Assembly (NCBI GenBank): GCA_018242665.1
Contig: JAFEBL010000013.1
Coordinates: 1 to 64,000 of the forward strand
Origin: Nitrospira sp.
Lineage (GTDB): Bacteria; Nitrospirota; Nitrospiria; Nitrospirales; Nitrospiraceae
Direction: 5' to 3'
Length of the DNA stretch: 64,000 bases
Shown piece after piece: positions 4,206 to 38,168 of the stretch. The position numbers were made by a program, and so were the translations under genes. Under the pieces are notes generated by a model that searched no databases, was not told the origin of the DNA, and saw only the letters and a list, made by a program, of their open reading frames with translations. Numbering within the stretch: the first letter of the stretch is position 1; the number at the start of each line of letters is the position of its first letter.

Positions 4206-4207
4206 GC

Positions 4208-18584: not shown

Positions 18585-18611
18585 GTCGCGTAGAATCGTT
18601 CTTCATAAGCC

Positions 18612-21206: not shown

Positions 21207-21248
21207 CGCCCTGCCTTTACGAGTGGGAATCCCCCTTTTCGCTTCGCC

Positions 21249-21278
21249 ACACTAGCCAATCATGCTTCCTGGCGTCAA
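21249..21278 (-). promoter_or_regulatory. possible promoter of the export protein gene
   Basis: Minus-strand TTGACG (21273-21278), an 18-base spacer and a weak TAGTGT (21249-21254), about 43 bases before the ATG at 21206. The -10 box matches only three consensus positions. Confidence 0.35.
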
Positions 21279-21302
21279 CTATGGGCCCCTGACTGTAATT
21301 GA

Positions 21303-22937
21303 TCAAAACTGCACGGCCACCGCGGTCCAAAGCAAATGGTTGTGGGCCGTGACTCCGGCGGCAAAGGTTTCAGCAAATGGCGTAATGGCCGACACCTGGC
21401 CGGGGTTGGTCAGACGCTGAAACGTGTATCCGCCCATGACCTGAATGTCTTTGGAATACCACCAGGTGAGATCGACGGCAGCTTCTCGCTTTTTCTCATG
21501 AACCGGTTGGCCCCGCTCCCGTTCCTGGATGTTGAAATTCGCGCCGAGTTGGAGACTGTCCATCAGATATCGGGTCGTGCGGATGAAGAAATCCGTACCA
21601 TCGGTTCCCATATGATGGCCTAACGGAAACCCTCGATAGCGCATGCCGCTGGTATAGGTTCCGTTGTTGTACCAAACCTCCGTCAGCTCAGGATGTCGTC
21701 GCCGGCCGTAGTCCGTATCAGCATACTCAATGCGCAGGTCCATGGTATCGCCTTCAAACACCTGCGGGACATAGATGCCGCCCAAAAACGCCGCGCGGCT
21801 TGGAATGGGCAGTTGCGACCATTTGTCCTCCGTTCCGATCTCCCCATACAATTGCAGGCCGGCTGGAAAGGGAATCAGGTACGGAACGGAAGGCAGCCTG
21901 AGCCGGAAATCGGCCATGCCCTGTTCGTTGACCTCCTTGCCGGCGCCCTGATTGGCCGGATGGAGATAGGTGTCCACAATCGTTTCCGGAAAGGATTGAT
22001 CGCGCCCGCGGCCGCCGAACTGGGTCAAGCGCGTGAGGCCCAACTCCAACCAGGGCGCGGGAAGATAGCTGATGCGCAATCCGAAGACACGAGCGCGGGA
22101 GAAATCGCGATTGCGCTCTAACTGCGCAAGAAAGCTATTCACCTTCCAGTCGCCGAGCCCGCGTAACACCCCCGGCAATTGAAAGGGACGCTCTGTCCCC
22201 AGCTTGATCATGTCCATGGGAAAGGCATGGTCGGTCAGCAACAGCGAGCCATGATAGCCCTGCCCCCACCACTGCGTTCCTCGCCCGACCTCGAGCGCAA
22301 TGTTGGCATAACTCAATTTGAGGCTGAATTCGCGCAGGTAAAAGTTGTCGCTGTTGTTGGTGGCGCCGATCCCCAGCAGGTGGCGATTGCTGATGAATTT
22401 CGGCTGGACCATGACGGCGGCCCATTCGTTCAGCTCTGCCCAGGCGCGCACATCCGTTTGGTTTTGCACACCATTGACGTAATATTCCCCACCACGGTTT
22501 TCACGGAAACGTACCGTTTGTCCACCGCCGATCGACGATGCATCGACCTCAGAGGTCACCCGGGCGCCGAACCGGAGCGATCCGGTTTTGTCGTCAGGAC
22601 GTGCGCGGATGGCGCCGAGGCGAATCAGCTCGGGACGGAACTCTCCAAGTAGTCGTTCCAGAAGCGGCTCGGCAATGGCCTCACGACCGTCGATGGCGAT
22701 CTCGTCGGCGCGCACCCGTTCGATTGCTCGCGCCACATATTCCGCCGCATGCAGACGAGTGAATGGCTTCGCTCCCACCAAGGCCCGATCGATCACCCCC
22801 AACGCAATCAGGCGCTCGATGGCGTCGTACGCCCAGTGGTGCAATGGGAGATTGCTGGACGCCAGGGCAACGCCCCCGGAGATCAGCCACAGCACGAGAA
22901 GCAGCGTGAGCGAGCGTAAGAGGCGCGGGACTTTCAC
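21303..22937 (-). CDS. Wzi-like capsule assembly outer-membrane protein
   Basis: 544 aa. Signal peptide (LLRSLTLLLVLWLISGGVALAS) followed by an SLH-like helical segment (LPLHHWAYDAIERLIALGVI, about 32-75) and a beta-barrel region with Wzi signatures such as GRGTQWWGQGYHGSLLLTDH, IEYADTD and HHMGTDG. It ends in aromatic QF, typical of outer-membrane barrels. Wzi proteins help tether or assemble capsule at the surface. The longer frame would overlap the upstream gene; the start is inferred as GTG at 22937 because it directly precedes the signal peptide. Lies between the dehydratase and the export gene. Confidence 0.82.
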   Translation of the reverse strand: MKVPRLLRSLTLLLVLWLISGGVALASSNLPLHHWAYDAIERLIALGVIDRALVGAKPFTRLHAAEYVARAIERVRADEIAIDGREAIAEPLLERLLGEFRPELIRLGAIRARPDDKTGSLRFGARVTSEVDASSIGGGQTVRFRENRGGEYYVNGVQNQTDVRAWAELNEWAAVMVQPKFISNRHLLGIGATNNSDNFYLREFSLKLSYANIALEVGRGTQWWGQGYHGSLLLTDHAFPMDMIKLGTERPFQLPGVLRGLGDWKVNSFLAQLERNRDFSRARVFGLRISYLPAPWLELGLTRLTQFGGRGRDQSFPETIVDTYLHPANQGAGKEVNEQGMADFRLRLPSVPYLIPFPAGLQLYGEIGTEDKWSQLPIPSRAAFLGGIYVPQVFEGDTMDLRIEYADTDYGRRRHPELTEVWYNNGTYTSGMRYRGFPLGHHMGTDGTDFFIRTTRYLMDSLQLGANFNIQERERGQPVHEKKREAAVDLTWWYSKDIQVMGGYTFQRLTNPGQVSAITPFAETFAAGVTAHNHLLWTAVAVQF

Positions 22938-23025
22938 GGGGCAGGCCGAACCTCGAGTAGGACGAACCGTGGACGCGACACCGAGACAGTCCCGTCGAGG
23001 ATCGGGATGGTCCCGCACACCGACA

Positions 23026-24996
23026 TCATGACGGCCTGTGGAGGACTGTGGGCAATGGGTCGGACACTGTGGCACTAGGAGCCGTACCGACGGGCATCTC
23101 CTCCGGCACCCCGCCCTCGGCATCGTGTACGCCATCCAATGCCATGTGCCCCGAGGCCGGGCGGTAGCTCGGAAGAATCGTGCGAAGGAGCGCCAGGACC
23201 ATAGCAACATTCCCCTCAGCGGCTGACTCCTCCAACTGCGCCACGAGAGCTGGAAGGCGGCTGGCATCACGCCCCGAGTCAGTCACCACGGCGAGCACTT
23301 TGGACATCGTCGTCAGCTCCACTCGTTCATAGGGGGCGATCAATTCCTCCACGAGTTTCTCTCCGGGTCTGCAGCCCACATAGGTCAAGGCGATATCCTG
23401 GTCCGGCACAAAACCCGCCAGACGGATGAGATTGCGCGCCATCTCCACCACGCTGATCTGCTCGCCCATCTCGAGGACAAAGAGCTCCCCTCCCTTGGCC
23501 AGATAGGCCGCATGGAGTACGAGATGCACCGCCTCGGCCACCAGCATGAAATAGCGTCGCATCTGGGGATCGGTAATGGTGACGGGACCTCCCGCTTTGA
23601 TCTGCTCGACAAACAGCGGCACGACGCTGCCGTTACTGCCCAGGACGTTACCGAATCGCACGGTCGCAAACCTAGTCCGCGACGCACGTCCGAGTTGTTG
23701 CAGGAGCAGTTCCGCCACGCCTTTGCTGGCGCCCATGACACTGACGGGATTCACGGCCTTGTCGGTGGAGATGAGGATGAACCGCTCGACTTCATGGCGA
23801 TGCGCAGCCTCCGCCACGATGCGGGTCCCCCCGACATTGTTCAATACCGCTTCGCAGGGATTGCCCTCCATAAGCGGCACATGTTTATGCGCGGCGGCGT
23901 GAAACACCAGCGTCGGGCGATACTCCGCAAACAGTCGGTTCATCTGACCGACCTGAGTGACATCGCCGATCACTGATGCAATCGAGACATGCCCGGCGGC
24001 CGTGAGTTCATTCACGACGGCAAATAGGCCGTTCTCATACCGATCGAGCAACACCAGCATCGCCGGCGACAATCGCGCGATTTGCCGACATAATTCCGAA
24101 CCGATTGATCCACCGGCACCGGTCACCAGCACGCGCGCGCCTTCCACCAGCGCCCGCAGGGGTTCTGGGTCCAGATCGACTGGAACCCGGTCAAGCAGGT
24201 CCTCAACCGACAGGTTGCGGATCTGGCTGACCTCCACCCGGCACTGCAGAAGATCACGCAAGTTTGGAAGGGTTTGCAGAGGAAGATGAAACGGTTCCAG
24301 CGCCCTGACCACTTCCCGAATCGTCGCGGGCGGCGCGCTCGGCATCGCGACCAACACCACGTCGGGCGCGTCCTCGGCGATGATACCAGACAGATAGGCC
24401 CGGCTCCCCAACACCCGAACCCCGTGAATGCGGTGGCCGACTTTGGCCGGATCATCATCCACGAAGCCGATCGGCCGATAGCCGAAGGAGGGATTGTTTC
24501 GCATCTCGCGGACGATCATGGCGCCGGCATCACCTGCTCCGACGATCAGCACGCGCTTCAGACCGGCTCCGCGCCATCTCGATCCATGGAAGAGCCTGGG
24601 CGCCAATCGAAGACCGGTCGACAGGCACAGCAGGACAAGCGCATCGATCACGAACACAGAAGATGGATAGGACCAGAGCCCCATCCCCCATCGAACTGTC
24701 CCGGCAAACAGCAGCGTACTCACGCCGATGCTCATGGCCAGATCGCGTACATCCCACAGGCTCGTGTAGCGCCACAGGCCGTCATACAGCCGAAAGGAAT
24801 AAAACGTGAGGGACCGAATACCGAGGAGGAGCGGAAGTAGGGCCGCATACAGCTCCCACTGCCCCGCAGGAATGTCTTCGTCGAAGCGGAGCAGGAAAGC
24901 CACCCAGTTTGAAAGGGCGGCCAAGGCCAAGTGGGCGAAGAACAACGTCCATCGCTGGCGGACGATCGTAAAGCGTGCGGAAAATGAACGAGCCAT
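23026..24996 (-). CDS. membrane nucleotide-sugar 4,6-dehydratase (CapD/PglF/WbpM type)
   Basis: 656 aa. Four N-terminal membrane helices (about 15-125), a first Rossmann domain (VLIVGAGDAGAMIVREM near 148) and a catalytic extended-SDR domain (VTGAGGSIGSELCRQIA near 290). The active-site region STDKAVNPVSVMGASKGVAE has the TDK triad and the Met-for-Tyr MGASK typical of large 4,6-dehydratases. It makes UDP-4-keto-6-deoxy sugars, usually from UDP-GlcNAc, which the nearby DegT aminotransferase could use. Separated from the methyltransferase by a 144-base gap with two hairpins. Confidence 0.92.
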   Translation of the reverse strand: MARSFSARFTIVRQRWTLFFAHLALAALSNWVAFLLRFDEDIPAGQWELYAALLPLLLGIRSLTFYSFRLYDGLWRYTSLWDVRDLAMSIGVSTLLFAGTVRWGMGLWSYPSSVFVIDALVLLCLSTGLRLAPRLFHGSRWRGAGLKRVLIVGAGDAGAMIVREMRNNPSFGYRPIGFVDDDPAKVGHRIHGVRVLGSRAYLSGIIAEDAPDVVLVAMPSAPPATIREVVRALEPFHLPLQTLPNLRDLLQCRVEVSQIRNLSVEDLLDRVPVDLDPEPLRALVEGARVLVTGAGGSIGSELCRQIARLSPAMLVLLDRYENGLFAVVNELTAAGHVSIASVIGDVTQVGQMNRLFAEYRPTLVFHAAAHKHVPLMEGNPCEAVLNNVGGTRIVAEAAHRHEVERFILISTDKAVNPVSVMGASKGVAELLLQQLGRASRTRFATVRFGNVLGSNGSVVPLFVEQIKAGGPVTITDPQMRRYFMLVAEAVHLVLHAAYLAKGGELFVLEMGEQISVVEMARNLIRLAGFVPDQDIALTYVGCRPGEKLVEELIAPYERVELTTMSKVLAVVTDSGRDASRLPALVAQLEESAAEGNVAMVLALLRTILPSYRPASGHMALDGVHDAEGGVPEEMPVGTAPSATVSDPLPTVLHRPS

Positions 24997-25021
24997 CGGC
25001 TACCCCGCCTGAACAACCCTG

Positions 25022-25084
25022 CGGAGTCGGCTTCTGACTCCGGCGTGAGAGAATACATTGTCTTTGAGGGCTGAATCCAGCCCT
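25022..25084. repeat. two perfect 7-bp hairpins in the leader of the dehydratase gene
   Basis: CGGAGTC/GACTCCG (25022-25028 with 25036-25042, 7-base loop) and AGGGCTG/CAGCCCT (25067-25073 with 25078-25084, 4-base loop) lie in the 144-base gap between the methyltransferase stop and the dehydratase start. Neither has a T-run on the minus strand. They may be processing or attenuation structures. Confidence 0.4.
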
Positions 25085-25140
25085 AGACGATACCTCAGCG
25101 CCGCCGCGCTGTCTCGATGGAGCGGACAGTCGCGCGAATG

Positions 25141-25917
25141 TCAGGCAGGTCGGCACACAGCAAAGAGAATTTTATAGCCCGTCGCCGGTTGTTCGGAGGA
25201 GACCGAAACAGGAGGAACGTATCCGGCCATCTCCTCACGCACCTCAGCGGGAAAGGGGACCAGTTTCCCGAGAAACAGCCGCTTCAGCGCACGCTTCCCC
25301 GCCATGCTCGATGGGATCAGATGCAGCCTGACAGCCGCGCGCTTGATCCATGACAGACAGCGGGCAGCACTCGAAGCCGGCGCAACAGGAAAGGCGCCAA
25401 AGAGGTCCGGCTGAAATCCGGACTCCCGCAGCAACGCCCACAATTCCCGGGCGGAATAGTACCGGTGACCATGAGCGTTCGGATTAAATTCCGGCCATTC
25501 CGGATTGACCGAGCAGAGCAGCAGATACCCCTGAGGAGCGAGCACCCGCCGGCACTCCGCGAAAAATTTTCCGGCGTCTGCAAAAAAATACAACGCTTCA
25601 TAACAGACAATCACGTCTCGGGATGCCGAGCGCAGCGGCAAGGCTTCGGCCTGGAGCTGCACCAATGGGGCCGTGCGTGGCAGATGCTTCCTGGCCTGAC
25701 GAAGCAACGCATCCGTCAGATCACCTCCCACGATTGTCTCGGCATGCCGTCCCAGATAGCCGAGCCCGACGCCCGGGCCGCAGGCGACTTCCAACACCCG
25801 ACGGCCTCGACAGAAGTCCGCTGCGAACCGGTAGCGCGTATAGACCATGGACAACGCTTCGGGCGTCACCCAATCGCCTGCCTTTTCTGTGACGGGGCTG
25901 TAGTCGGAGAGGGTCAC
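25141..25917 (-). CDS. class I SAM-dependent methyltransferase
   Basis: 258 aa soluble protein. The SAM-binding motif I is VLEVACGPGVGLGYLG near residue 41, followed by DLTDALLRQA (motif II region) and an acidic DVIVCYEALYFF (motif III region), the methyltransf_11 layout. The start overlaps the stop of the DegT aminotransferase by four bases (ATGA). In this locus it most likely methylates a sugar or a sugar amine in the exopolysaccharide pathway, but the acceptor is unknown. Confidence 0.85.
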   Translation of the reverse strand: MTLSDYSPVTEKAGDWVTPEALSMVYTRYRFAADFCRGRRVLEVACGPGVGLGYLGRHAETIVGGDLTDALLRQARKHLPRTAPLVQLQAEALPLRSASRDVIVCYEALYFFADAGKFFAECRRVLAPQGYLLLCSVNPEWPEFNPNAHGHRYYSARELWALLRESGFQPDLFGAFPVAPASSAARCLSWIKRAAVRLHLIPSSMAGKRALKRLFLGKLVPFPAEVREEMAGYVPPVSVSSEQPATGYKILFAVCRPA

Positions 25918-27026
25918 GGCTGCGTGGAGAAAAATTCCCGGAGTGCGGCGACGACCTGCTCGACCTGCGCCTCCGTGGTTTCAGCGCTCATCGGCAGGGA
26001 GACGACGTCCCGGCAAATCGAGAGCGTTTCGGGAACATCCGGAACCGCTAATCCCAACCCTTTGTGTTCCCACATGGGTTTGTGCCAATGGACCAGCGTC
26101 TCGATCCCCTGTTCCTTCAGATAGGCGCGCAGTGGCTCTCGGACCGTGGTGCGGATGACATAGTTCTGAAAGATGTCCTGGCGCCGCGACTCGTCGAATT
26201 GCGGAATGCGGAGTTGTGTGATGCCTGATAGCCCCCGATGATAGGCGGCGGCAATCCGTCGACGGTGAGTCATCCAGTCCGGCAGATGACGGAGCTTCAC
26301 ATCGAGCACCGCCGCCTGCACATTGTCCAAGAGGGCCGTCTGCCCATGATAGTGATATTCACCGGTCGCGCGGTCCTCGCCGTTATAGCGAAGGAGTGTT
26401 GCCATGCGGGCGAGCTCGGGATCATTCGTCGTAATGGCTCCGCCATCCCCGAACCCGCCGAGCACCTTAAAGGGATAGAAGCTGAAACAGCCGGCGCGCC
26501 CCTGACTGCCCGCACATTTGCCGTCGAACGTGGCCCCGAGCGCTTGCGCCGCATCCTCGATGACCGCCAGCCCGTGTTTGTCGGCCAGCGCCAGGATACG
26601 GTCCATCTCACAAACCCGTCCGTTCAGGTGCACGGGAAGGAGTGCTTTCGTTTTCGGTGTGATGGCGCGTTCGATCAGATCGACATCCATATTGAAGTCA
26701 GACCCGACGTCGATCAATACCGGCTGTGCGCCACAGTGCACGATGGCAGATACCGTCGCGACAAAGGTGTGAGCCACGGTAATGACTTCATGGCCAGGTC
26801 CGACGCCGGCTCCTAGCAGCGCAAACAGCAGGGCATGATATCCGCTGTTGACCCCAACGGCATACTTCACCCCGACAAACTCGGCCAGGTGCTGCTCGAA
26901 ATCCTTGAGCTGGTGCCGGTTGACGAGATCGCCATTGGCCAGACAATCGATGATCGCCCGATCGATCTCAGGCTTGAGTTTCGCATAATGACTGCGGGGG
27001 TCGATGAAAGGGACCTGATAGGCCAT
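25914..27026 (-). CDS. DegT/DnrJ/EryC1/StrS-type sugar aminotransferase
   Basis: 370 aa, usual length for the family. The PLP-binding Asp is in AVIEDAAQALGATFDG and the Schiff-base Lys in FSFYPFKVLGGFGDGGAI near residue 190; GVNSGYHALLFALLGAG near 58 binds the phosphate. Such enzymes transfer an amino group to 3- or 4-keto nucleotide sugars. Its substrate may come from the 4,6-dehydratase in the same run. Two bases separate it from the E1 beta gene upstream. Confidence 0.93.
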   Translation of the reverse strand: MAYQVPFIDPRSHYAKLKPEIDRAIIDCLANGDLVNRHQLKDFEQHLAEFVGVKYAVGVNSGYHALLFALLGAGVGPGHEVITVAHTFVATVSAIVHCGAQPVLIDVGSDFNMDVDLIERAITPKTKALLPVHLNGRVCEMDRILALADKHGLAVIEDAAQALGATFDGKCAGSQGRAGCFSFYPFKVLGGFGDGGAITTNDPELARMATLLRYNGEDRATGEYHYHGQTALLDNVQAAVLDVKLRHLPDWMTHRRRIAAAYHRGLSGITQLRIPQFDESRRQDIFQNYVIRTTVREPLRAYLKEQGIETLVHWHKPMWEHKGLGLAVPDVPETLSICRDVVSLPMSAETTEAQVEQVVAALREFFSTQP

Positions 27027-27028
27027 CG

Positions 27029-28018
27029 CTACGATCTGGTACTCGACACAAGCACTTTTTCCACTGCCGACACAATCGCTTCCGCGCCGATATAGTACGC
27101 CTGCTCAAGCACGGCAGAGGTCGGCGCCGGCGCATCCGGCAAACAGACTCGTACGATCGGGGCTTTCAGCGCGTGAAAGATTTCTCCCGCCACCGACGCG
27201 GCGATTTCCGCAGCGGTGCCGCCGCTTATCCAGGCAGCATCGGCAATGACCAAGCGCCCAGTCTTTCCGACTGACGAATACACCAGATTGCGATCCCAGG
27301 GCTTGACTGAACGCACATCGATCAACTCTACATCGATGCCACGTTGAGTCAGCATCTCAACCGCCTTGCTGGCTTCACTTGCCATGTAGGACGTGGCGAG
27401 CAGCGTGACATCCCTGCCGCTCCGTCGAATCACCGCCGCGCCTATCGGCACCTCATACAGACCTTCAGGCACCTCCCCCTGCAGATCATAGAGCCATCGA
27501 TCATCGATGTAGAGCACAGGGTTCCCGTCTCGAACGGCAGCCACGAGCAGGCCCTTCGCATCATAGGGCGTTGCCGGCATAACGACCTTCAACCCGGGGA
27601 CATGCGCAAAAAGCGCCTGCAGGGCCTGAGAATGTTGTGCGCCCTGTTCGCCGCCTCGATTGATCACCGCACGTATCACCACCGGCACGGACACCCGTCC
27701 GGCAAAGAGGTAAGACCAATTGGCCGCCTGGTTCATGATGGGGTCCATCGCCAACAACATAAAATCCATGCGCGGATGGAACACAATGGGACGCATCCCG
27801 GTGATGGCCGCGCCGATGGCCGTCCCGGTGGTCGCATTCTCCGAAACGGGCGAATCAATCACGCGATGCGCACCGAACTCCTTATCCAGGTCCTGCAGGC
27901 TGGTTCCCGCATACCAAGGATTCCGGACGCCCTGGCCGATCAAGAACACTCGCGGATCTTCCGCAAGGAGCTGCGCATGGGCCTCCCGAATGGCCTGCGC
28001 ATAACTGAGTGTGCGCAT
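27029..28018 (-). CDS. TPP-dependent 2-oxoacid dehydrogenase-like E1 beta subunit
   Basis: 329 aa. It matches the E1 beta chain of pyruvate/branched-chain/acetoin dehydrogenases: RTLSYAQAIREAHAQLL start, SENATTGTAIGAAITGMRP (Glu that activates the thiazolium, near 58), and a C-terminal transketolase domain. The start at 28018 leaves four bases after the E1 alpha stop; the longer frame is rejected because it overlaps alpha. No E2 (lipoyl) or E3 gene follows, and the pair sits inside a polysaccharide locus, so it may act on a sugar intermediate. Confidence 0.85.
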   Translation of the reverse strand: MRTLSYAQAIREAHAQLLAEDPRVFLIGQGVRNPWYAGTSLQDLDKEFGAHRVIDSPVSENATTGTAIGAAITGMRPIVFHPRMDFMLLAMDPIMNQAANWSYLFAGRVSVPVVIRAVINRGGEQGAQHSQALQALFAHVPGLKVVMPATPYDAKGLLVAAVRDGNPVLYIDDRWLYDLQGEVPEGLYEVPIGAAVIRRSGRDVTLLATSYMASEASKAVEMLTQRGIDVELIDVRSVKPWDRNLVYSSVGKTGRLVIADAAWISGGTAAEIAASVAGEIFHALKAPIVRVCLPDAPAPTSAVLEQAYYIGAEAIVSAVEKVLVSSTRS

Positions 28019-28022
28019 ACGC

Positions 28023-29024
28023 CTAGCCCTCTCCCCGCACGTACACATACTGCAGCAATTCACTCTCATCCGGGGCTGGCGATTGGCGTGCAAAGCTCAC
28101 AGCCTCGTCAATTTCTCTGCGGATCTCAGTCTCTAGCCGTTCGAAGACTTCGGACGACAGGCCTTGCGCATTGAGCAGGCCACGACAATGCGCGATGGGA
28201 TCGCGGCGCTGCCAGTCGTCGAGTTCGCGTCGTCGGTCCGTACCAACTTCGAGATCAGCCGCAGGACCGACATGCCCGCGCCACCGATACGTGCGACACT
28301 CCAGCAGCGTGGGGCCCTCGCCAGCTCTTGCGCGATCCACGGCCTGTTGCGCCGCCTGATAGACGGCCGTCACATCGTTCCCGTCTACCACCACGCCGGG
28401 CAATCCATGCAGCGCCGCGCTCTCCACGATATTGTCCTTCACCCGTCGATCTTTCAGCGTCAGATGCGTGGAGTACAGATTATTTTCACACACAAACAAG
28501 ACCGGAAGGCGGTACAAAGCCGCCAGATTCAGCGACTCGTGGAAGTGCCCCTCGTCGGTCGCGCCATCTCCGAAAAACGCCACGGCAACGTGATCCGTGC
28601 CTCGAAGCGTTGCGGAAAGACCGGCGCCGACGGCCAATGGAATGGTCGCCCCCACCAACGGAACCGTGCCGAAGATGCCCTGCGCCGGATCGACCAGATG
28701 CATGGAGCCCCCGCGCCCGCGCGCGCACCCCGTGACCTTGCCAAAAATCTCCGCCATCATGGCGCGCAGGTCGCCGCCCTTCGCAAGATAGTGCCCATGC
28801 GAGCGATGCCCGCCCCAGACAGTATCATCCTGACGCAGCACCGTACAAACACCGACGGGAATGGCTTCTTGCCCGATGGACAGATGGCACGGCGTCCGCA
28901 CCTCGCGAGTCGCGACGAGTTCCCCGATGCGTTCCTCAGCAACACGAATACGCTGCATCGCCCAAAGCAACGACATCAGTTGGTCGTGCGACAACGGGGT
29001 CACATGCGTATCTTGAAGATTCAT
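28023..29024 (-). CDS. TPP-dependent 2-oxoacid dehydrogenase-like E1 alpha subunit
   Basis: 333 aa. The thiamine diphosphate/Mg motif is complete: GDGATDEGHFHESLNLA through CENNLY near residue 155-185. HRSHGHYLAKGG and GRGGSMHL are the usual E1 alpha blocks. It should form an alpha2-beta2 enzyme with the next gene and create a TPP-bound two-carbon or acyl carbanion. It overlaps the sugar transferase stop by four bases (ATGA). Without E2 the product might be transferred directly to an acceptor sugar; this is inference. Confidence 0.87.
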   Translation of the reverse strand: MNLQDTHVTPLSHDQLMSLLWAMQRIRVAEERIGELVATREVRTPCHLSIGQEAIPVGVCTVLRQDDTVWGGHRSHGHYLAKGGDLRAMMAEIFGKVTGCARGRGGSMHLVDPAQGIFGTVPLVGATIPLAVGAGLSATLRGTDHVAVAFFGDGATDEGHFHESLNLAALYRLPVLFVCENNLYSTHLTLKDRRVKDNIVESAALHGLPGVVVDGNDVTAVYQAAQQAVDRARAGEGPTLLECRTYRWRGHVGPAADLEVGTDRRRELDDWQRRDPIAHCRGLLNAQGLSSEVFERLETEIRREIDEAVSFARQSPAPDESELLQYVYVRGEG

Positions 29025-29650
29025 GCACCCAGCTCCAGTACCTGTGGCTCACGGAATTTTACGCGGAACAGAACCGCCCCAATGGTCCGACACAGAATCC
29101 CGAGGTCGGTCCGAAAACCGGCCTGACGCACATAGGCAAGTTGTAGACGGATTTTCTTCGGTCTGATCAGTTCGCAGTAGGCTCGATCCGGATCGGCACT
29201 TCCCTCCAGAATGGCGCCTTCATCGATGTTCCATAAACTGGCCCAATCGGTGAGACCAGGCCGCACTGTGAGAATGGCTTTTTCTTCGTCTGTATACAAA
29301 TCTACAAATCGCTGCACTTCCGGCCTCGGTCCGACGAGGCTCATTTCGCCGCAGAGCACATTCCAGAGTTGCGGGAGTTCGTCCAATTTATACCGTCTCA
29401 GCACCGCCCCAATCCGCGTCAGTCGAGGATCGTCGTTGGCTGTTGAGGTGACGCCGGACCGCTCCGAATCCGGTCTCATCGTGCGAAATTTCAGAATACG
29501 AAATGGCCTGCCGTATCTCCCCACCCGGAATCCACGGTAAAAAGGCGAGCCGCCGTCGCCCAATGTGATCACCAGCGCGATCGACAGCAGCATGGGAGAC
29601 AACAGCATTACCCCCAGGACAGCACAAAGAACATCAAATGCTCGTTTCAT
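29021..29650 (-). CDS. initiating phosphoglycosyl transferase (bacterial sugar transferase)
   Basis: 209 aa, short monotopic PglC-like form with a single N-terminal hydrophobic segment (KRAFDVLCAVLGVMLLSPM). Family motifs are KFRTM, DELPQLWNVLCGEMSLVGPR and RPGLTDWASLWN. It moves a sugar-1-phosphate onto undecaprenyl phosphate to start the repeat unit. ATG 29650 (MKRAFD) fits the family start better than 29698. It is first of a tightly overlapped five-gene block. Confidence 0.92.
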   Translation of the reverse strand: MKRAFDVLCAVLGVMLLSPMLLSIALVITLGDGGSPFYRGFRVGRYGRPFRILKFRTMRPDSERSGVTSTANDDPRLTRIGAVLRRYKLDELPQLWNVLCGEMSLVGPRPEVQRFVDLYTDEEKAILTVRPGLTDWASLWNIDEGAILEGSADPDRAYCELIRPKKIRLQLAYVRQAGFRTDLGILCRTIGAVLFRVKFREPQVLELGA

Positions 29651-30025
29651 AAAAAGGAAAGACGCCGCTATCGCGCGCCGCCCCAATGCTGCCGTCAATG
29701 AGAATCCGATGCCCGCCCCTTCTGAACGCCTACCACCGTAACATGCCAGTATGGCGGTTGAGATGGTATCGCTTCAAGAGCGTTTTTTCAGGCCAGGAGC
29801 TTGCTCTTCGTGATTTGCCCCGCACAAACCGAACCATCCATGATCTCCACCTGTACCAAGAAAAGCCGAGCAGAATTGCATTCAGGGCCTGTAGTGCCCC
29901 CAGGACGGAACGATCACCGAGAGATGTTAAAAGGGAAGCGCTACCAGTATGGCAAGGTACAAGAATTGATCAACCCGTGTCTCTGAACCATGAGGGTATC
30001 CAGAGAAACTTCCTCCAGGCCTGTT
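29651..30025. other. 375-base gap in the polysaccharide locus, no gene recognised
   Basis: This is the longest gap in the locus and lies where the A+T-richer segment begins. Reading both strands I see only short frames without recognisable motifs or ribosome sites, a weak AGGAG-CTTG-CTCTT hairpin near 29798, and no clear promoter. It may be decayed coding sequence at the junction of two joined gene blocks. Confidence 0.5.
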
Positions 30026-31198
30026 CTATCTGGCCGGGGCTGCACGGTTTGTCTCCACATTGAATACTTTTTGCCAAAATTCACGGATTGTAAGAAGCCT
30101 GAACGCCCCCCAGAGGGAACCGAGCCCGTATCCGACATGCAGCATGGCAAAAATCATCGGCATCAGCAGTAGATACTTCGGTTGCTTCGCCTCCCAGGCA
30201 ACGTGGAGTGATGCAATCACATTCGCGAGCACATAGGCGCCGAGAATACCCCCTCCAATCCATCCGAACGCTCCCTGCCAGGCGGTTAAGACGAGCATGG
30301 CTACCAGACTACCGACAAAGCACAGTGGAACAAGATGACGCGGGCTGACTGGAATCACATTGCTATACGCAAAGGGCACTATGGCCCATACACCATTGAT
30401 CCAATTGTGACACCAGAACGACTTGATGTCCGACCGAGCATAGTAGTAGCTGACGATATCAGGGATCAGGAGTGTGCGGCCTCCAGCCTTCCGCAAACGA
30501 AGACTGAATTCCATATCCTGTCCTCGCGTCAACCGCTCATTAAAAACGACCGGCTGATTCAGCCGAAGGCTGAATTCCATGTCTTCGCCCCGGACCAGGC
30601 TTTCATTAAATCCACCGAGTTCCTGAAACACCCATCGCCGCACGCAAAAGAACGGAACCGTATCGACAAACTTCGGCTCGCTGCCCTGGGGCAGCCGAAA
30701 ATGCGAGTTGCCCACCCCGAATGGATGGGACAAAGCTTTAACAATGCACCATCCCACCAATGTCTCCGTTCGAGGCAGGGTTTTCCAGATCCCCCCGACA
30801 TTGTCGACCTTGTACTTTCCCAGAGCGTCCACACAACGGGAAATGTAGTGGCTGTCATATCGGGCATGGGCGTCCATCCGCATCACAATGGGGCCACGGG
30901 TGTGCTTGATCCCCAGGTTCATCGCAGTGGGAGTCACACGTTTGGGGTTATCTAACACCGAAAGAAACGCATGGTTGCGAGAAAAGCTGTCAAGAATTGC
31001 ACGGGTCCCATCATCGCTCATGCCGTCAACCACGAGTATTTCCAGGCGATCTTTGGGAAAATCATTTGCGAGCACGGATTCGAGACAGTCGGCAATAAAC
31101 CCTCGCTCGTTCCGGCAGGGAATGATGATCGAGACGATGGGGTAATTGTGAGCATTTGTATTCTGCAAAGGCTTTGCTGTCCCGTATCCAGTACTCAT
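30026..31198 (-). CDS. family 2 glycosyltransferase with internal in-frame duplication
   Basis: 390 aa. N-terminal GT-A domain (VSIIIPCRNERGFIADCLES, then VVDGMSDDGT and MRMDAHARYD as the DxD-type motif) and C-terminal membrane helices (about 285-370), as in SLBB-independent EPS glycosyltransferases such as ExoA-like proteins. The acceptor region GGFNESLVRGEDMEFSLRL is followed by NQPVV and then a second, diverged copy FNERLTRGQDMEFSLRL before RKAGGR, so 22 residues are inserted in the active-site region. The start at 31198 (MSTGYG) avoids the overlap with the preceding gene. The duplication may impair or alter activity. Confidence 0.85.
   Translation of the reverse strand: MSTGYGTAKPLQNTNAHNYPIVSIIIPCRNERGFIADCLESVLANDFPKDRLEILVVDGMSDDGTRAILDSFSRNHAFLSVLDNPKRVTPTAMNLGIKHTRGPIVMRMDAHARYDSHYISRCVDALGKYKVDNVGGIWKTLPRTETLVGWCIVKALSHPFGVGNSHFRLPQGSEPKFVDTVPFFCVRRWVFQELGGFNESLVRGEDMEFSLRLNQPVVFNERLTRGQDMEFSLRLRKAGGRTLLIPDIVSYYYARSDIKSFWCHNWINGVWAIVPFAYSNVIPVSPRHLVPLCFVGSLVAMLVLTAWQGAFGWIGGGILGAYVLANVIASLHVAWEAKQPKYLLLMPMIFAMLHVGYGLGSLWGAFRLLTIREFWQKVFNVETNRAAPAR
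30494..30610 (-). repeat. imperfect direct repeat inside glycosyltransferase gene (66-base offset)
   Basis: Two copies encoding FNE-L-RG-DMEFSLRL start at 30610 and 30544, 66 bases apart and in frame. The 17-residue units differ at Ser/Arg, Val/Thr and Glu/Gln and also at many silent sites, so this is not a recent slip. One copy corresponds to the usual family sequence; the other appears inserted. Confidence 0.85.
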
Positions 31199-31224
31199 AT
31201 CGAGATTCAGATCCGTTCTATGGC

Positions 31225-32112
31225 TCAGAAAAACGTGTCTGCACAATACGTGGCCGCTTCTTTCATTCGCGTCGCCATCAGTTTCGTGGGCCACACCCCT
31301 ATCGTTTTATGCTCTTCATGATGAACACGCAGCCGCGGGTCATAGGCAACGCTTGAGCCGATACGCCTGGCGGTCTCGGCTACGAATACCTCTTCCCCGA
31401 ATAAGAAGGCACCATGGTGCAGCGAACCGCCAGATTCAAAATAGCTTTTTCGAAAGGCGAGAAACGCACCATGACCTGCATAAATGGGCAACGGTTCAAC
31501 GTAGGAACTGGGCTCCATGGTTTCAGTTCCTAACGGCTTCCGCAACCTCCGTAACCGTTCTTTCATCACATGCATTGCAGAGTATAGCCAAAGCATAGGG
31601 TACCACTGGAAGATGGCCTTATAACAATTCATTCGTAGGCTAGTTGGACGTGCCGTCATGAACGGGTTTTGGTCCCTGCCTGACACACCTGAAATAATAG
31701 CCGGAGCGATGACGGCATGCGCATGACTTTCTCCGTACCGCATCAGCCGCACAAAAAACCTCTCTCCGTCCAAAAACACATCCACATTACAAACGATGAC
31801 CCACTCGGGCCATTCATGAGTCAGCAGGAATTCCTCCAGCGCCGAAGCCGCCCCTCCGAAATAACCGAGATTGTCTCCTGGGCTGTGAATAGCGATGTCC
31901 GCCTGTTGACCATCTAGATTAGATAGCACAGGGGCAAGATCAGAAACTTCGCTATTGTCCACAAGGACTAGAAACGGTCTTTCTTCAACCTTCTCTCGAA
32001 TGATCTGTTGCGCCAGACGTAGCGCATCAAAGTTACTCTTATAGGTCACACCAATTACCACCATGGGTAAATGAAGAGAAGCACGGCGATGCAATCCGTT
32101 GTTACCGTTCAT
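31225..32112 (-). CDS. family 2 glycosyltransferase (rhamnosyltransferase-like)
   Basis: 295 aa soluble GT-A protein. VVIGVTYKSNFDALRLAQQI at the start, NLGYFGGAASALEEF near 84 and VIVCNVDVFLDGERF near 108 (DxD-type metal site) match the GT2 group related to rhamnosyl/galactosyl transferases. The YAGHGAFLAFRKSYFESGG segment is the usual acceptor loop. It lies three bases after the Wzy gene stop and just before the other glycosyltransferase. Sugar specificity cannot be read. Confidence 0.82.
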   Translation of the reverse strand: MNGNNGLHRRASLHLPMVVIGVTYKSNFDALRLAQQIIREKVEERPFLVLVDNSEVSDLAPVLSNLDGQQADIAIHSPGDNLGYFGGAASALEEFLLTHEWPEWVIVCNVDVFLDGERFFVRLMRYGESHAHAVIAPAIISGVSGRDQNPFMTARPTSLRMNCYKAIFQWYPMLWLYSAMHVMKERLRRLRKPLGTETMEPSSYVEPLPIYAGHGAFLAFRKSYFESGGSLHHGAFLFGEEVFVAETARRIGSSVAYDPRLRVHHEEHKTIGVWPTKLMATRMKEAATYCADTFF

Positions 32113-32115
32113 TGA

Positions 32116-33456
32116 CTATGACCGCAGCACATGAGGCAGCTTCACCCAGAACATGACATACATGGCAAACATGAGGAATGCGACGATCAGCGTATTATAC
32201 GTTGTTACTGCCGCGATAGGACTCCAGAGCGCAAACCAGTAAAACGATATCAGGAGAGGAAGTCCCGCGACAGCTCGCCCTGCTACCATTCTGTACCCAG
32301 TTCCACCCACAAGTCCGACACAGAAGAGGATTGCAAGGCTGCCTGGAAGGGTGAAGTCTTCAATAAGGCCTCTGAAAACGGTGTAGATGTTCGTATCGGT
32401 CGAAAATTCTCCCCCCAGATCTATGTCGATGACATCTTCATGGATACCTAACACTCGATTCTTGATGCCCAGAGCTTCGAAAATTCCTCCGAAGGTGATT
32501 GCACCAAACGAAGGAGCGATATCCATGTACTTTTCCGACTTAAGCCATTCTCCGAATGCAACCAGATATCCGACCACATCTCCTCTAATAAAACGCGGCC
32601 ATACGACCGGAAGAAGCGAATCGAGCGCGAGGTCGTAACGTGTAAGCAGAACCATTGAAAATCCCACAAGCAGCGCACATCCGACAATTGGGACAAAAAA
32701 AATGGCTTTTTTAGTGAACAGCGGTCTCCCCGTTCCGTCCTTGAATATTTTCATTCCCCAATACGCCGAAAGCCAAAAAACCATCTGAAACAACATCGGG
32801 GCCCGGGTTGTTTGTACGACAGTAATAAGAATTGCCGGAACAAAAGGGAAGAAGGCGAGCATGCGCAAATAAGTCCCGGTTGAACAAGCGAACCAAGCCC
32901 CGCCCAATAGCGCACTTGCATACATAAACACCAAAAAAAGTTGCACAATTGCCGGAGGGCGATACACCTCGGCATACCGAGCCGTTGAAAAAAATTGAGC
33001 CATCGCCGCAACGGCATCCGTCGACAATAGATCTCCAATGCTGTATCCCCCTGACTGAACAAGCATGACCACCGCTACGCATCCGAGAGTGCCGCAAAAG
33101 ATCATGGCGTTTCTGAGAGAAGCGCCTACTTTGTTAAACGTTTCCACAGTCGGCCAATTGTTCCGGCTTACCGCTTTCACATGATGGCTCGCCGATCCGA
33201 ACTGCCCTAATCCCGTCACAGTCCCTACATACACGATCAACGTTATGATCCATATCATGACAAGTGCCCCTGGCCACACTGCCAGATCTGGGGCCAACAT
33301 AAGGGGTCCAACTGAATACCCAACCCAGAGAAGAGAAAAAAAGGCTCCCGGCGCAAACCAGCTGCCTTGCTCGATCCTGGCCCACCCCGCTAACAGAATG
33401 AGAGGGAGTGCGAGCAATATGCAGACCCACCACGTATTATTGAGGGCCATGTCCAT
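32116..33456 (-). CDS. O-antigen/EPS polymerase-like membrane protein (Wzy)
   Basis: 446 aa, about eleven to twelve hydrophobic helices throughout and one larger periplasmic loop (about 275-330), the usual layout of repeat-unit polymerases. There is no strong sequence motif, as is normal for Wzy. Placement between a flippase-like gene and glycosyltransferases, inside a locus with Wzz and a Wza-like exporter, supports the role. Codon use and base composition are more A+T-rich than in the neighbouring core genes. Confidence 0.75.
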   Translation of the reverse strand: MDMALNNTWWVCILLALPLILLAGWARIEQGSWFAPGAFFSLLWVGYSVGPLMLAPDLAVWPGALVMIWIITLIVYVGTVTGLGQFGSASHHVKAVSRNNWPTVETFNKVGASLRNAMIFCGTLGCVAVVMLVQSGGYSIGDLLSTDAVAAMAQFFSTARYAEVYRPPAIVQLFLVFMYASALLGGAWFACSTGTYLRMLAFFPFVPAILITVVQTTRAPMLFQMVFWLSAYWGMKIFKDGTGRPLFTKKAIFFVPIVGCALLVGFSMVLLTRYDLALDSLLPVVWPRFIRGDVVGYLVAFGEWLKSEKYMDIAPSFGAITFGGIFEALGIKNRVLGIHEDVIDIDLGGEFSTDTNIYTVFRGLIEDFTLPGSLAILFCVGLVGGTGYRMVAGRAVAGLPLLISFYWFALWSPIAAVTTYNTLIVAFLMFAMYVMFWVKLPHVLRS

Positions 33457-33512
33457 TTCTCGTCTGTCTCTGCACTATTTTCTGATAGACAACAGCGTCC
33501 TAGCCCCAAGAA

Positions 33513-35060
33513 TCATCGGGGCCGCATCTCGACTCCGAGTCTCGCGAACTTCCACACAAGCGGTCGAATTGATCCCTCTAAGAAAAACCATCCGCAAAAC
33601 AGGTAGGTGACGGCAAAAACCAAAATCCAACCCATGAGCCCAAGAGGAGTGTCGCGAGGAATACCAATGCTGGCGGCACATGCCAAGCCTGTACATACGA
33701 GTGCCCCTACGCTGCTTGCTGCCAACCTTCTGAGGTCAAAATACTCTAATGTGTTACTCAACACAAAGGCCATGGCGAAGGCACGGAAAGCAATCGAGAG
33801 ATTTATGACGAATGCGATCCCGACAAGCCCCCAAATTGGAATGAGCAAATATGTGCCGATAGCAGCGAAAACGGCACTGAGAGCCGTCGAGACAAGCGGA
33901 GTCCTAGTGTCTCCAAAGGCATAACACGCCTTGATAAACACCGGCTCAAGGACCGCAGCTACAAGGCCTCCGCAATAGAAGATGAACACCGCTTCTGTCA
34001 TCTCTAGTGCGTTGCGGTCAAACGCGCCTCGCAGATAGAGCAGACCTAAGATTTGATCGCGCAATGCCATGCAGCAGACTGCAGCCGGCACGAAGAGGAT
34101 GATGACCGTGTTGCTAATTCGCATCAAAATCTCCGCTGCCTCCTGACGCTTTCCTTCACGCCAAAGCAGGGAAAATGTTGGGAACACCCCGCGAGATACG
34201 TTAAGAGCAACCAGTGCGACCATCATGATGTTCACTCGCCGCGCATAATTGAGGGTCGCAATGCTACCTTCAGCCAGGCCCGAGGCGAAGTAATTCTCTA
34301 CTGCGGTAATAATCTGGCACGAGAACTCCAATAATAGTATCGGCACACACAGATGTATGAAGGGCCATATCGCTGCTCCCGACTGATGCATGCCAAACCT
34401 AGCCAAATGGTGTCGCCAAAGTAGAAAGAACAGGATCCCTCCGCAGGCTGCCAGGCCAAGCACACTACCAGCCACAAGAGCGCCAACACCTAATACAGTA
34501 GAAAACATCACCAATATGGCAATGGCAACCACGTTAAAGCCAAGATCACTGAATGCAGGAACAGAAAAGTGCCCTTGAGTGTTGAACGCAGCGGATAAGA
34601 CAAACACAAGATTGAGCAATAGCGCATAGAGTGCGAGCCATGGAGCGAAGCTTGCGGCCATATTGATCGCCCGCCAGGATAGCGAGGGAGCAAGCACTCG
34701 GATAATTGATTCGGGTACCAAAATGAGAGGGGCGAGCGCAATCGCGGACAAGCCAAGTGTGGCAACTATTACCTTCCCAACAAAACTCGCAGCGTTCTCC
34801 TTGCCCACTTCTGCTTGAAGATCGTGGAGAACAGGGATCAGCATCGTCGATAGCGCAATCCCTATCCCGCTGCCGGCAAGAAGCGCCGCTGAAAGAGCGA
34901 TGATAAAAGCATCCACCTCGCCACTGACGCCGAAATATTTGGCGATGAGCAGTTCACGAAAAAACCCAAGGCCCTTGCTGAGGAAAGCAACTGTGATCAA
35001 TAGCAAAGATGCTGAGGTCCAACTCTGAACCGATAGACCCCTACTGCCTTTCCTACTCAT
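33513..35060 (-). CDS. MurJ/MviN-family lipid-linked oligosaccharide flippase
   Basis: 515 aa, about 14 hydrophobic helices. The N-terminal FFRELLIAKYFGVSGEVDAF and the later RRVNIMMVALVALNVSRGVFP and GDTRTPLVSTALSAVFAAIG are typical of the MurJ (MVF) family. In this locus no other Wzx is seen, so the protein likely flips the undecaprenyl-linked repeat unit, not lipid II. First gene of the minus-strand polysaccharide run and divergent from the outer-membrane protein at 35182. No clear ribosome site or promoter seen. Confidence 0.85.
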   Translation of the reverse strand: MSRKGSRGLSVQSWTSASLLLITVAFLSKGLGFFRELLIAKYFGVSGEVDAFIIALSAALLAGSGIGIALSTMLIPVLHDLQAEVGKENAASFVGKVIVATLGLSAIALAPLILVPESIIRVLAPSLSWRAINMAASFAPWLALYALLLNLVFVLSAAFNTQGHFSVPAFSDLGFNVVAIAILVMFSTVLGVGALVAGSVLGLAACGGILFFLLWRHHLARFGMHQSGAAIWPFIHLCVPILLLEFSCQIITAVENYFASGLAEGSIATLNYARRVNIMMVALVALNVSRGVFPTFSLLWREGKRQEAAEILMRISNTVIILFVPAAVCCMALRDQILGLLYLRGAFDRNALEMTEAVFIFYCGGLVAAVLEPVFIKACYAFGDTRTPLVSTALSAVFAAIGTYLLIPIWGLVGIAFVINLSIAFRAFAMAFVLSNTLEYFDLRRLAASSVGALVCTGLACAASIGIPRDTPLGLMGWILVFAVTYLFCGWFFLEGSIRPLVWKFARLGVEMRPR

Positions 35061-35181: not shown

Positions 35182-37452
35182 GTGAAACCACAGCTTATTC
35201 ATCAAATCGGTGGCGGTCTGCTCTGGGCAAGCGTACTCACGCTCGCCTGGCTATTCCCAACAAATGCCCTATTCGCAGGAGAAGCCGCTCAGCCCGCAGA
35301 TTCCCATCTCCTCGACGCTCGTTTCTCCGTGACTACCTTTCTGCTCAATCTGGAGAAACAAGGGTTGGAGGACAATACCTTCACGAACGGCCTTGGGCGC
35401 GACACGACGCTGATCGGGAATCTGGTCAATGCCACGCTCTACAAACAGCTGCTTCCTTCGCTCGAAGCTGAAGTCGGCCTCTTCGCCAACATGCCATTCG
35501 GCCACGACCATGAAATCTCGCAGGTCCGCCCCATTCTACGGTTGACGTACACACCGACAGAACAGGTGACGGGAATCGTGGGCACCCTTCGAACCGGCCA
35601 CCGGGATTTTCACGACGCGGTCTTCGACAACGGCAACCGCTTCCTCCGGCCGCTTGAGCAAGGGGCTCAAATGCTAGTGGATTCCGAGCACTATCGGCAA
35701 GACCTGTTCATCAACTGGCAGCAGGCCTTCCGGGGCTCGGCCCCGAACCGCTTCGATGTGGGATACGCCGGTCAGCTGAAGTTCGGACCGCTTCGATTCA
35801 ACGGCCAGGCGCATTGGGTGCGTAATGGACAAGCGCTGTTCAAACTGGATCGTTCCTTCGATACCCGCGACAATCTCGTCGTTGCCGCCGGCCCGGAGTT
35901 GGTCATGGAACCGTCCCACTATTTCTCAGCACTCTCCTGGTGGCATCAAGTTGGTGTCAGTTTCACGTACCTGACCAGCTACAACCAGGCCGACAATGGC
36001 TCAGACGCCACTCGTGGGCGCGGCTATGAACTACGGACCTGGCTCGACTTGGCCGGATGGCGCCCCTATCTCGCCTTTTGGAAAGGTCGCAATTTTTTGA
36101 GCCAGCAAGGCGACCCCGAGTTTCGGGCCAGCAATTTCCCGGAGATCGGTCTCTCCAAAATGATTCGCCTGGGCCCTCGCGCTTCACTGGAATTCGGCGT
36201 GCAGGCCCGGCGCATCCGGTCCTTCTTTACCGAGGACGGACTCACCTACATGAACCGGGATACGTTCAAATGGGTGAACCAAGAATACCTGGTCTTTAAT
36301 TGGGATTGGGATACCAACCACGCAGACTTGGCCAGTGATGTATGGGCTTCGCTGTCCCGGCCGTTCGACGTTCGACAGGACGCGCCGGCGGAACGCCGGT
36401 TCACGGCCAAACTGGATGCACTGACCTATGTCTACAGTCTCTCCTATGCCGGTGTACGGCAGATCGGTGGGGTCCCGGTCTCGAATCACACATTTGCCGG
36501 ACAATATCTCTCGCCGGTGCTTCAGTACCGAGTCAGCCCGCAACTCACACTCGACGCCGGCCTGTTCGCCGGGTTCCCGGTTGGAGACACACAGTCCTTT
36601 CACACCGTACAACCGATTCTTTCTGCGCAATACGAAATGGCTCCGGACGTGCGTCTGATAGCCGGTACCCTGCACCGCAACCATCCATTCGTGGATGCGT
36701 TATTCAACGATGCCACGCTGTTCAGCCGTCCCGTCGAGCAGGGCTTCCAACTGCTGGTCGACCGTAAACATTACCAGCAGGACCTCTTCATCAATTGGAA
36801 TCAGATCGAGACGTTTCAGAAGGCAGAGCGGTTCGATGTCGGGTATGCGGGCCGTGCTTCTGCCGGTCACTTCTCGCTCAATGGCCAAATCTATTGGGCC
36901 CATTCCGGCGGGACTCAATATTCAGAATCCAGGACGTTTTTTGGTCCGGGCATTCCCCGCGATCGCCCGGCCGGCAATAATTTCCTGACGGCGTTTGGCC
37001 CCCAGTTTACCCTTCAACCCCGACAATACTGGTCCGCTGTGCCCTGGTTTCGAGAAATCGACATCATGGCCCTGTACCTGACGAGCCAGAATGAACCGAC
37101 GCAAAGCGGGTCTCCGATTGTGCGTGGCCGGGGCTATCAGTTGACCGCCGGGGTGAATCTCGACGGGTGGCGCCCCTATGTCACGATGTGGCGTGGTGAG
37201 CACTTTGTGACAGAGCGTGGCGATCCGGCCTACTATGCGGGCGACTTTACCGAATTCGGGCTGCTGAGGGACTTCATGCTGCCTGCAGGATTCTCCCTGC
37301 GCATCGGCGGTTTCGGACGAATCATCGAACACCATCTCACCCATACCGAATACGCCCTGCTCAACTGGTCATGGGATCAGTCGCCCTGGCGAGGATTCTG
37401 CCTGCGCCCAACCCTGTTACACCGGAGCGAGTCCTCCTGCGGCCAATTCTGA
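35182..37452 (+). CDS. double-barrel outer-membrane protein (two tandem homologous halves)
   Basis: 756 aa. A signal peptide (GGLLWASVLTLAWLFPTNAL) precedes two homologous parts of about 360 residues. Matching blocks include RPLEQGAQMLVDSEHYRQDL with RPVEQGFQLLVDRKHYQQDL, FDVGYAG with FDVGYAG, TRGRGYEL with VRGRGYQL and GWRPYLAFWKG with GWRPYVTMWRG. Both halves are rich in alternating aromatic strands and have no soluble domain. The final residues are QF. The start is uncertain: GTG 35182 precedes the signal peptide, TTG 35140 is in frame, and neither has a clear ribosome site. Its place beside the polysaccharide genes suggests a role in export or surface attachment of the polymer; function is not established. 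Confidence 0.8.
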   Translation: MKPQLIHQIGGGLLWASVLTLAWLFPTNALFAGEAAQPADSHLLDARFSVTTFLLNLEKQGLEDNTFTNGLGRDTTLIGNLVNATLYKQLLPSLEAEVGLFANMPFGHDHEISQVRPILRLTYTPTEQVTGIVGTLRTGHRDFHDAVFDNGNRFLRPLEQGAQMLVDSEHYRQDLFINWQQAFRGSAPNRFDVGYAGQLKFGPLRFNGQAHWVRNGQALFKLDRSFDTRDNLVVAAGPELVMEPSHYFSALSWWHQVGVSFTYLTSYNQADNGSDATRGRGYELRTWLDLAGWRPYLAFWKGRNFLSQQGDPEFRASNFPEIGLSKMIRLGPRASLEFGVQARRIRSFFTEDGLTYMNRDTFKWVNQEYLVFNWDWDTNHADLASDVWASLSRPFDVRQDAPAERRFTAKLDALTYVYSLSYAGVRQIGGVPVSNHTFAGQYLSPVLQYRVSPQLTLDAGLFAGFPVGDTQSFHTVQPILSAQYEMAPDVRLIAGTLHRNHPFVDALFNDATLFSRPVEQGFQLLVDRKHYQQDLFINWNQIETFQKAERFDVGYAGRASAGHFSLNGQIYWAHSGGTQYSESRTFFGPGIPRDRPAGNNFLTAFGPQFTLQPRQYWSAVPWFREIDIMALYLTSQNEPTQSGSPIVRGRGYQLTAGVNLDGWRPYVTMWRGEHFVTERGDPAYYAGDFTEFGLLRDFMLPAGFSLRIGGFGRIIEHHLTHTEYALLNWSWDQSPWRGFCLRPTLLHRSESSCGQF
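35302..37390 (+). repeat. tandem intragenic duplication of a barrel-coding unit
   Basis: The coding halves, about 35302-36340 and 36397-37390, are homologous at the protein level (roughly 360-370 residue offset) and diverged in DNA. The duplication is therefore old. Each unit alone is long enough for a 12-16 stranded barrel. Confidence 0.75.
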
Positions 37453-37495: not shown

Positions 37496-37544
37496 AGCAA
37501 CCTAAGCGTCTTGTGAGTATATGTTGTCTATTGCAGGAGGGGTA

Positions 37545-38168
37545 ATGCGCCGTTGGTCGATCGGTTTGTCGGTTCTGGTCCTGCTGTGCGTGCCAGCCCT
37601 TACGTGTGCCGAAACCTATATCGCCGCGGGTATGGGCATGAATGCCCCCACATTCGATACCACTGACGTCGGCAAAGTGTCTCTGCAAAAGGACCTGTTT
37701 TACGGCGGGAAAATCGGCCATTACTTCAACGACCGCGGGTACAATTGGTTTGGCCTCGAACTCGACGCCTACCGCTCCACCCCCGGCATCAAACAACAAA
37801 CAGTGCACACTTCCACCAATCCTCACTTGTCAGGACATATCCCCGGTGCAGACTTGATGGTGCACTCATTGGCGTTCAACGCATTGGTGCGAGTGACCGG
37901 CTACCAATACAAGGTGGAACCCTATGCCGGCCTGGGTATTGGCCTGAATGTCGGCAATATATCGAGTGGGAATTTCAGACCGGAAGCGTCTTTTGCCCCG
38001 AGCTTTAATGTGTTGGCCGGCATACGCTATTACATGACCGACTCGATCGCCCCCTTTTTGGAGTACAAGTACAACTTCGCCCAGTTCAAGTTCGACCGCA
38101 GCAATGTCACGGCTGACTACCGTGCCAACCTCTTCATGTTCGGCATCGCCTTCCATTTCGGCCGCTAA
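37545..38168 (+). CDS. small outer-membrane beta-barrel protein
   Basis: 207 aa. Signal peptide (RRWSIGLSVLVLLCVPALTCA, with ATG 37545 after a near-perfect AGGAGG), then an eight-strand OmpA/OmpW-type barrel: repeated alternating patterns such as TYIAAGMGMNAPTF, WFGLELDAYR, YAGLGIGLNVG, APFLEYKYNFAQFKF, ending NLFMFGIAFHFGR with a terminal aromatic-rich strand. No periplasmic domain. It has its own promoter. Likely a structural or passive surface protein; ligand unknown. Confidence 0.82.
   Translation: MRRWSIGLSVLVLLCVPALTCAETYIAAGMGMNAPTFDTTDVGKVSLQKDLFYGGKIGHYFNDRGYNWFGLELDAYRSTPGIKQQTVHTSTNPHLSGHIPGADLMVHSLAFNALVRVTGYQYKVEPYAGLGIGLNVGNISSGNFRPEASFAPSFNVLAGIRYYMTDSIAPFLEYKYNFAQFKFDRSNVTADYRANLFMFGIAFHFGR

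Follow-up and report, generated by a model that had tools for sequence, protein, structure and literature searches.

A predicted twin-barrel outer-membrane protein of Nitrospira built from two LpxZ-like units

A gene on the plus strand of a Nitrospira contig (positions 35182–37452 of the 64,000-nucleotide stretch analysed here, referred to as the window) was proposed in a preliminary description to encode an outer-membrane protein made of two fused homologous barrels, perhaps for polysaccharide passage. The locus raises the questions of whether the two halves form two barrels or one, when they were joined, and what such a pair might do.

Internal duplication and predicted fold

The open reading frame encodes 756 amino acids from a GTG start; an alternative TTG start further upstream would give 770 amino acids, and a Val start recurs at the equivalent site in relatives. 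Residues 1–32 (35182–35277; all coordinates within this gene refer to the plus strand) were read from the sequence as a putative signal peptide, a hydrophobic stretch ending in ALFA before GE. In a self-comparison, residues 76–377 align with residues 437–732 with 114 of 286 positions identical, at offsets of 360–370 residues (355 for the last block). The paired blocks include RPLEQG at 156 with RPVEQG at 516, and GWRPY at 292 with GWRPY at 662, as had been noticed in the preliminary description. The alignment score of the two halves was 545, compared to 37.4 ± 5.9 (maximum 60) for 200 shuffles of one half, ruling out a chance repeat, and BLASTP of one half against the other extended over 345 columns (34% identity, E = 8e-67). 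Almost the whole of the mature protein is taken up by the repeat, confirming that the 756-residue protein is an internal tandem duplication.

AlphaFold2 predicted 16 plus 16 strands for the full mature protein with low confidence (mean pLDDT 62, pTM 0.44). The N-terminal unit (residues 41–382; 35302–36327) and the C-terminal unit (residues 404–734; 36391–37383) are each predicted to be a 16-strand barrel, and are joined by a 21-residue linker (36328–36390) that is weakly conserved, with 36% mean identity and dN/dS of about 0.5. The C unit modelled alone, from an input of 50 sequences taken from both halves and from single-unit homologues, also gave 16 strands (pLDDT 85.8, pTM 0.82). Past the last strand, a C-terminal tail (37384–37449) carries C740 and C753, which are invariant in 23 aligned proteins; they are the sole cysteines of the protein and possibly form a disulfide.

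The models were compared with solved structures using VIA-align. Residues 365–689 of the full-length model aligned with OmpT (Z = 18.9, rmsd 3.7 over 272 residues) and with residues 1–289 of the Rhodopseudomonas blastica porin (Z = 17.8, rmsd 4.1 over 258 residues), and model residues 4–339 aligned with BpsOmp38 (Z = 17.4, rmsd 4.2 over 280 residues). The C-unit model aligned with OmpT over 272 residues (Z = 19.1, rmsd 4.4) and is porin-like over its whole length, while comparison with viral structures returned porin-like matches only. Since closed 16-strand porins match each half over its full length and the C unit folds alone, the predictions favour two separate 16-strand barrels, which is probably the correct architecture. 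A single 32-strand barrel would agree with the capacity of duplication in principle to enlarge a barrel, as in an engineered OmpX variant reportedly made by end-to-end duplication, and with the only moderate confidence of the full-length model, but it was not predicted and was rejected as highly improbable on the per-half porin alignments and the C-unit fold, with the existence of single-unit proteins and the poor conservation of the linker also against it.

Relationship to LpxZ and origin of the fusion

No Pfam family matched the protein up to E = 1, including the exporter, porin, LpxR, PagL, GfcD and Wzi families, and membership of the LpxR, PagL, GfcD, porin and Wzi families was rejected accordingly; a search of PDB sequences with the protein also gave no match. 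Exactly one NCBIfam model matched, the LpxZ family NF052651 (E = 4.8e-19, 68.5 bits), in two stretches. The separate halves matched the same model with E = 1.2e-8 (N, 34 bits) and 3.3e-11 (C, 43 bits), as did three single-unit homologues from Nitrospirota (E = 3.5e-14, 3e-10 and 6.5e-4), and BLASTP of the C half against the Parabacteroides distasonis LpxZ gave E = 2e-9. Homology is thus significant along the unit, but the 68.5 bits lie below the curated equivalog cut-off of 460 bits (the P. distasonis protein, used as a yardstick, scored 567 bits), and the members of this genus that have the gene carry two units per chain in place of one unit of about 371 positions. By these sequence comparisons both halves are distant homologues of LpxZ, and the protein is not an LpxZ equivalog; with a score so far below the cut-off, its function may have shifted.

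LpxZ is needed by some gut and mouth bacteria for removing fatty acids from the lipid on their surface. To our knowledge, no active site has been mapped for it, and the evidence connecting it to deacylation is a gene deletion in a single organism. In the account of PMC11784228, LpxZ is the lipid A deacylase PGN_1123 of P. gingivalis, whose deletion yields penta-acylated instead of tetra-acylated lipid A. The P. gingivalis deacylase, named LpxZ (PGN_1123) there, is apparently LpxR (PG1333) in the account of PMC12704123, in which another group, citing the PGN_1123 paper, refers to a 3′-O-deacylase as LpxR/PG1333. The Pfam LpxR model, PF09982, does not recognise the Parabacteroides LpxZ, and it matched neither the twin-barrel protein nor anything else in this genome, with a control genome positive. 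LpxR was also not among the matches listed in the structure searches, an absence that speaks neither for nor against a shared fold. Viral contigs searched with the Parabacteroides LpxZ yielded nothing.

Named relatives, including those of Ca. Nitrospira defluvii (FP929003) and Nitrospira UBC2, are 68–84% identical over the whole length. The two halves lie in one frame in 23/23 distinct mature Nitrospira proteins aligned; the stop between halves named in the preliminary description as a refuting result is absent from all of them, and a pseudogene or frameshifted pair in relatives was rejected on the same count. In a non-exhaustive sample of 395 Nitrospirota genomes, both units were found in 20 of the 22 same-genus genomes listed, and the rest of the phylum gave matches in only four genomes (G288, G313, G178 and G311), all as single units. 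Single-unit homologues, which the preliminary description had suggested looking for, occur in other families of Nitrospirota and in Bacteroidota; the G288 homologue comes from another genus of the same family as Nitrospira. The G178 homologue (contig L070, about 3067–3994, minus strand) is split between frames, being either broken or affected by a sequencing error. G311 carries two adjacent single-unit genes (L068:1935–3059 and 3056–4219) that overlap by four bases. A match in G010 was dropped, as it lay on the wrong strand inside another gene. In G018, the 223 contig bases before the kept downstream barrel gene (see below) encode no twin-barrel end.

In a maximum-likelihood tree, which was midpoint-rooted and in which long branches leave the deeper order unsure, the N units form one group (support 100/100) and the C units another (100/99), the two being joined at 93/84, with the G288 single unit branching just outside them (92/87). 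The simplest reading of this tree would be one duplication and fusion in the ancestor of this Nitrospira genus, after the G288 lineage had split off. The suggestion of an old duplication behind the double barrel is borne out to this extent: the halves are homologous, and a single duplication precedes the radiation of the genus in the tree. The G311 pair groups together (100/100), pointing to an independent tandem duplication, and these adjacent genes may be the unfused equivalent of the Nitrospira protein.

Conserved residues, neighbourhood and proposed function

The C unit has a long segment between strands 5 and 6, at the place of the inward loop L3 of porins, which contains H501-x3-D505 followed by E519-x3-Q523 in the motif RNHPFVDA...RPVEQGFQ (36676–36750). 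N538-W539 ends strand 7, and H574-x-G-G (H574–G577; 36901–36912), common to most single-unit homologues and the Parabacteroides LpxZ, ends strand 9. All of these residues are kept in C units. The corresponding N-barrel motif is GHRDFHDA...RPLEQGAQ (H140, D145, E159, Q163; 35596–35670). In N units the His, Glu, Gln and Asn-Trp are retained, but several have Asn in place of the Asp, and HxGG has become (R/H)xGQ in 23/23, here RNGQ (R214–Q217; 35821–35832). When N units, C units and single units are aligned together with LpxZ, the L3 His is invariant; its apparent loss from the G311 pair in a different alignment was thus a gap shift. One of the single-unit homologues (G311a) lacks HxGG as well, so it may not be catalytic. 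N units additionally carry a first-loop signature, LNLEKQGLEDNTFTNGLGRDTT (residues 55–76; 35344–35409), which hardly varies across 23 relatives and has no counterpart in the C barrel; its consensus opens with LNxEKQGLED and continues directly with NTFTNGLGRDTT.

The barrels were oriented by their loop lengths and the usual periplasmic N-terminus, and lineages were weighted equally in the column statistics. Strongly conserved columns fall mostly in the extracellular third or the loops (24/31, P = 0.002). The bias is also seen for polar columns within strands (9/14, P = 0.02) and is weak for all polar columns (14/20, P = 0.08). Estimates of dN/dS, which are rough with dS near saturation, were about 0.09 for the N unit and 0.06 for the C unit, compared to 0.5 for the linker, and the C barrel is the more conserved (83% identity versus 76% for the N barrel). 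Both units are thus under purifying selection, with neither half decaying. As C units keep all of the family residues, while N units have lost some and carry a loop of their own, we propose that the C barrel is catalytic and the N barrel specialised.

Our best guess, tentatively held, is that the protein modifies lipid A, with the unit doubled and its labour divided. The genome encodes LpxC, and lipid A is therefore expected. The product, which derives from duplication of one LpxZ-like unit in an ancestor of the genus, is predicted to be secreted to the outer membrane and to form two tandem 16-strand β-barrels there. By homology it would most likely act on outer-leaflet lipid A, whether by cleaving acyl esters itself or by binding lipid A as a component that deacylation requires. 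Catalysis would fall to the C barrel, with His501, Asp505, Glu519, Gln523, Asn538 and His574-x-Gly-Gly placed mostly near its extracellular end and loop L3, and the N barrel might position the substrate, recognise another part of the LPS or regulate the C barrel. The full combination, a two-barrel lipid A modifier in a free-living nitrifier with one barrel an enzyme and its duplicate a dedicated recognition or regulatory barrel, is a more doubtful proposition than lipid A modification itself.

One argument against a lipid A role is that the closest folds are those of porins, which would suit a channel as well. A channel of two barrels, resembling GfcD/YjbH or a fused porin pair and passing polysaccharide or another solute, might serve the polysaccharide locus that lies to the left of the gene on the minus strand. 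This locus encodes Wzz (17307), an OPX exporter (18612), Wzi (21303) and sugar-modifying genes, followed by a sugar transferase (29021), a glycosyltransferase (30026) and, as the divergent neighbour of the twin-barrel gene, a MurJ-family flippase (33513–35060, minus strand; PF03023, E = 1.2e-52). Across 17307–35060 of the window, gene content differs strongly between close relatives, and the OPX protein is an 864-residue multi-SLBB exporter. The flippase neighbour invoked in the preliminary description is present in 8/11 loci examined, this one included, but another gene takes its place in the remaining three: among ten sampled relatives, a Pfam scan of the nearest long minus-strand gene identified seven as MurJ-type, two as aldo/keto reductases and one as a sugar oxidoreductase-type gene. 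The MurJ-type genes were too divergent to be detected by tblastn, and locus L018 has a further possible plus-strand open reading frame between the twin-barrel gene and its minus-strand neighbour. The twin-barrel gene thus sits at the edge of a surface-polysaccharide locus of variable content, an association that is real, and the flippase is not proposed as part of the device.

A channel would be in keeping with the closest solved folds among the matches listed, which are 16-strand porins and the alginate exporter AlgE, and with GfcD, described as a two-barrel exporter candidate (PMC11494523). However, by sequence the protein is homologous to a lipid A deacylase and not to any exporter, with no exporter or porin family matching as described above; an OPX exporter, Wzz and Wzi are already encoded within the Wzx/Wzy-type locus next to it; and the immediate neighbours of the G313 and G311 single-unit genes, read by eye, are not sugar genes. 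The sequence evidence thus makes a lipid-trimming role more likely than a sugar channel, and we consider the polysaccharide passage first suggested for this protein unlikely.

The next gene downstream (37521–38168, plus strand) encodes a small outer-membrane barrel of 215 residues (PF13505, E = 3.9e-11), found at the same place in 16/16 named relatives, and is likely an operon partner of the twin barrel. G018 keeps a downstream barrel of this type with no adjoining twin-barrel end, and several distant paralogues occur elsewhere in Nitrospira genomes. This strictly conserved neighbour and the invariant loop signature of the N barrel would fit a non-catalytic scaffold that organises the envelope, its barrels binding LPS or tethering the small barrel, as would the porin-like fold, with the attachment porin OmpM1 among the best matches. 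LpxZ itself may act indirectly, being known in the literature examined (PMC11784228) through deletion phenotypes only. The family-wide set of His, Asp, Glu and Asn is, however, typical of a chemistry site, though compatible with binding too, and a pure scaffold is as unlikely as a channel. Less probable again is a covalently fused dimer in which each barrel is an active deacylase, so that two ester positions, or two LPS molecules, would be cut: the His, Glu, Gln and Asn-Trp shared by the halves and the purifying selection on both would allow it, but the N barrel has lost HxGG in every relative aligned, has Asn for the Asp in several, and is the less conserved half.

Elsewhere in the window, positions 4208–14074 hold clustered genes for cytochrome bd-like subunits, cytochrome b, a Rieske protein and several c-type cytochromes, among which 8427–9446 encodes a 339-residue protein with no Pfam match.

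Significance and comparison with known systems

A duplicated barrel is in itself ordinary, as multi-barrel proteins are already known; what is new is the combination of a fused LpxZ-like barrel pair with asymmetric conservation in a nitrifier. The LpxZ homologous family is extended from Bacteroidota to Nitrospirota and gains a predicted fold, a 16-strand porin-like barrel, and the internal duplication giving the asymmetrically conserved twin barrels is placed on a tree. Comparison of twin barrels, single units and true LpxZ yields candidate active-site residues, so that the mechanism of LpxZ becomes testable. Nitrospira is free-living and has no host immune system to evade; if the protein acts on lipid A, an environmental nitrite oxidiser would be remodelling this lipid, implying a role beyond immune evasion.

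The preliminary description was right that most outer-membrane barrels are single, though those with several barrels form a recognised class of their own (PMC11494523, citing Solan et al. 2021). The twin-barrel protein resembles members such as GfcD/YjbH in having more than one barrel in one polypeptide (Solan et al. 2021, via PMC11494523 and PMC9603273), and by prediction its two barrels are complete. GfcD combines 12 and 13 strands in unlike halves with a periplasmic domain between, whereas the protein studied here has a predicted 16 plus 16 strands, homologous halves and a short linker, and neither the GfcD family nor, by prediction, the 12 + 13 architecture applies to it. With the LpxZ family it shares a homologous unit of about 330–370 amino acids and the motifs G(T/N)...H-x3-D/E, E-x-G-x-Q, N-W, HxGG (in the C half) and late G motifs; it differs in having two units per chain, an N unit lacking HxGG, and an origin in another phylum. 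The lipid A deacylases LpxR and PagL are smaller barrels, of 12 and 8 strands. If the LpxZ function holds here, the likeness to these two would be that of outer-membrane barrels acting on lipid A acyl esters with a conserved His, and the difference lies in the lack of a sequence match and in the predicted 16 strands of each barrel. The 16-strand porins (OmpT, OmpF, PorB, OmpM1) are similar in predicted fold and in the long loop between strands 5 and 6, but identity to them is only about 8–13%, with no porin family match.
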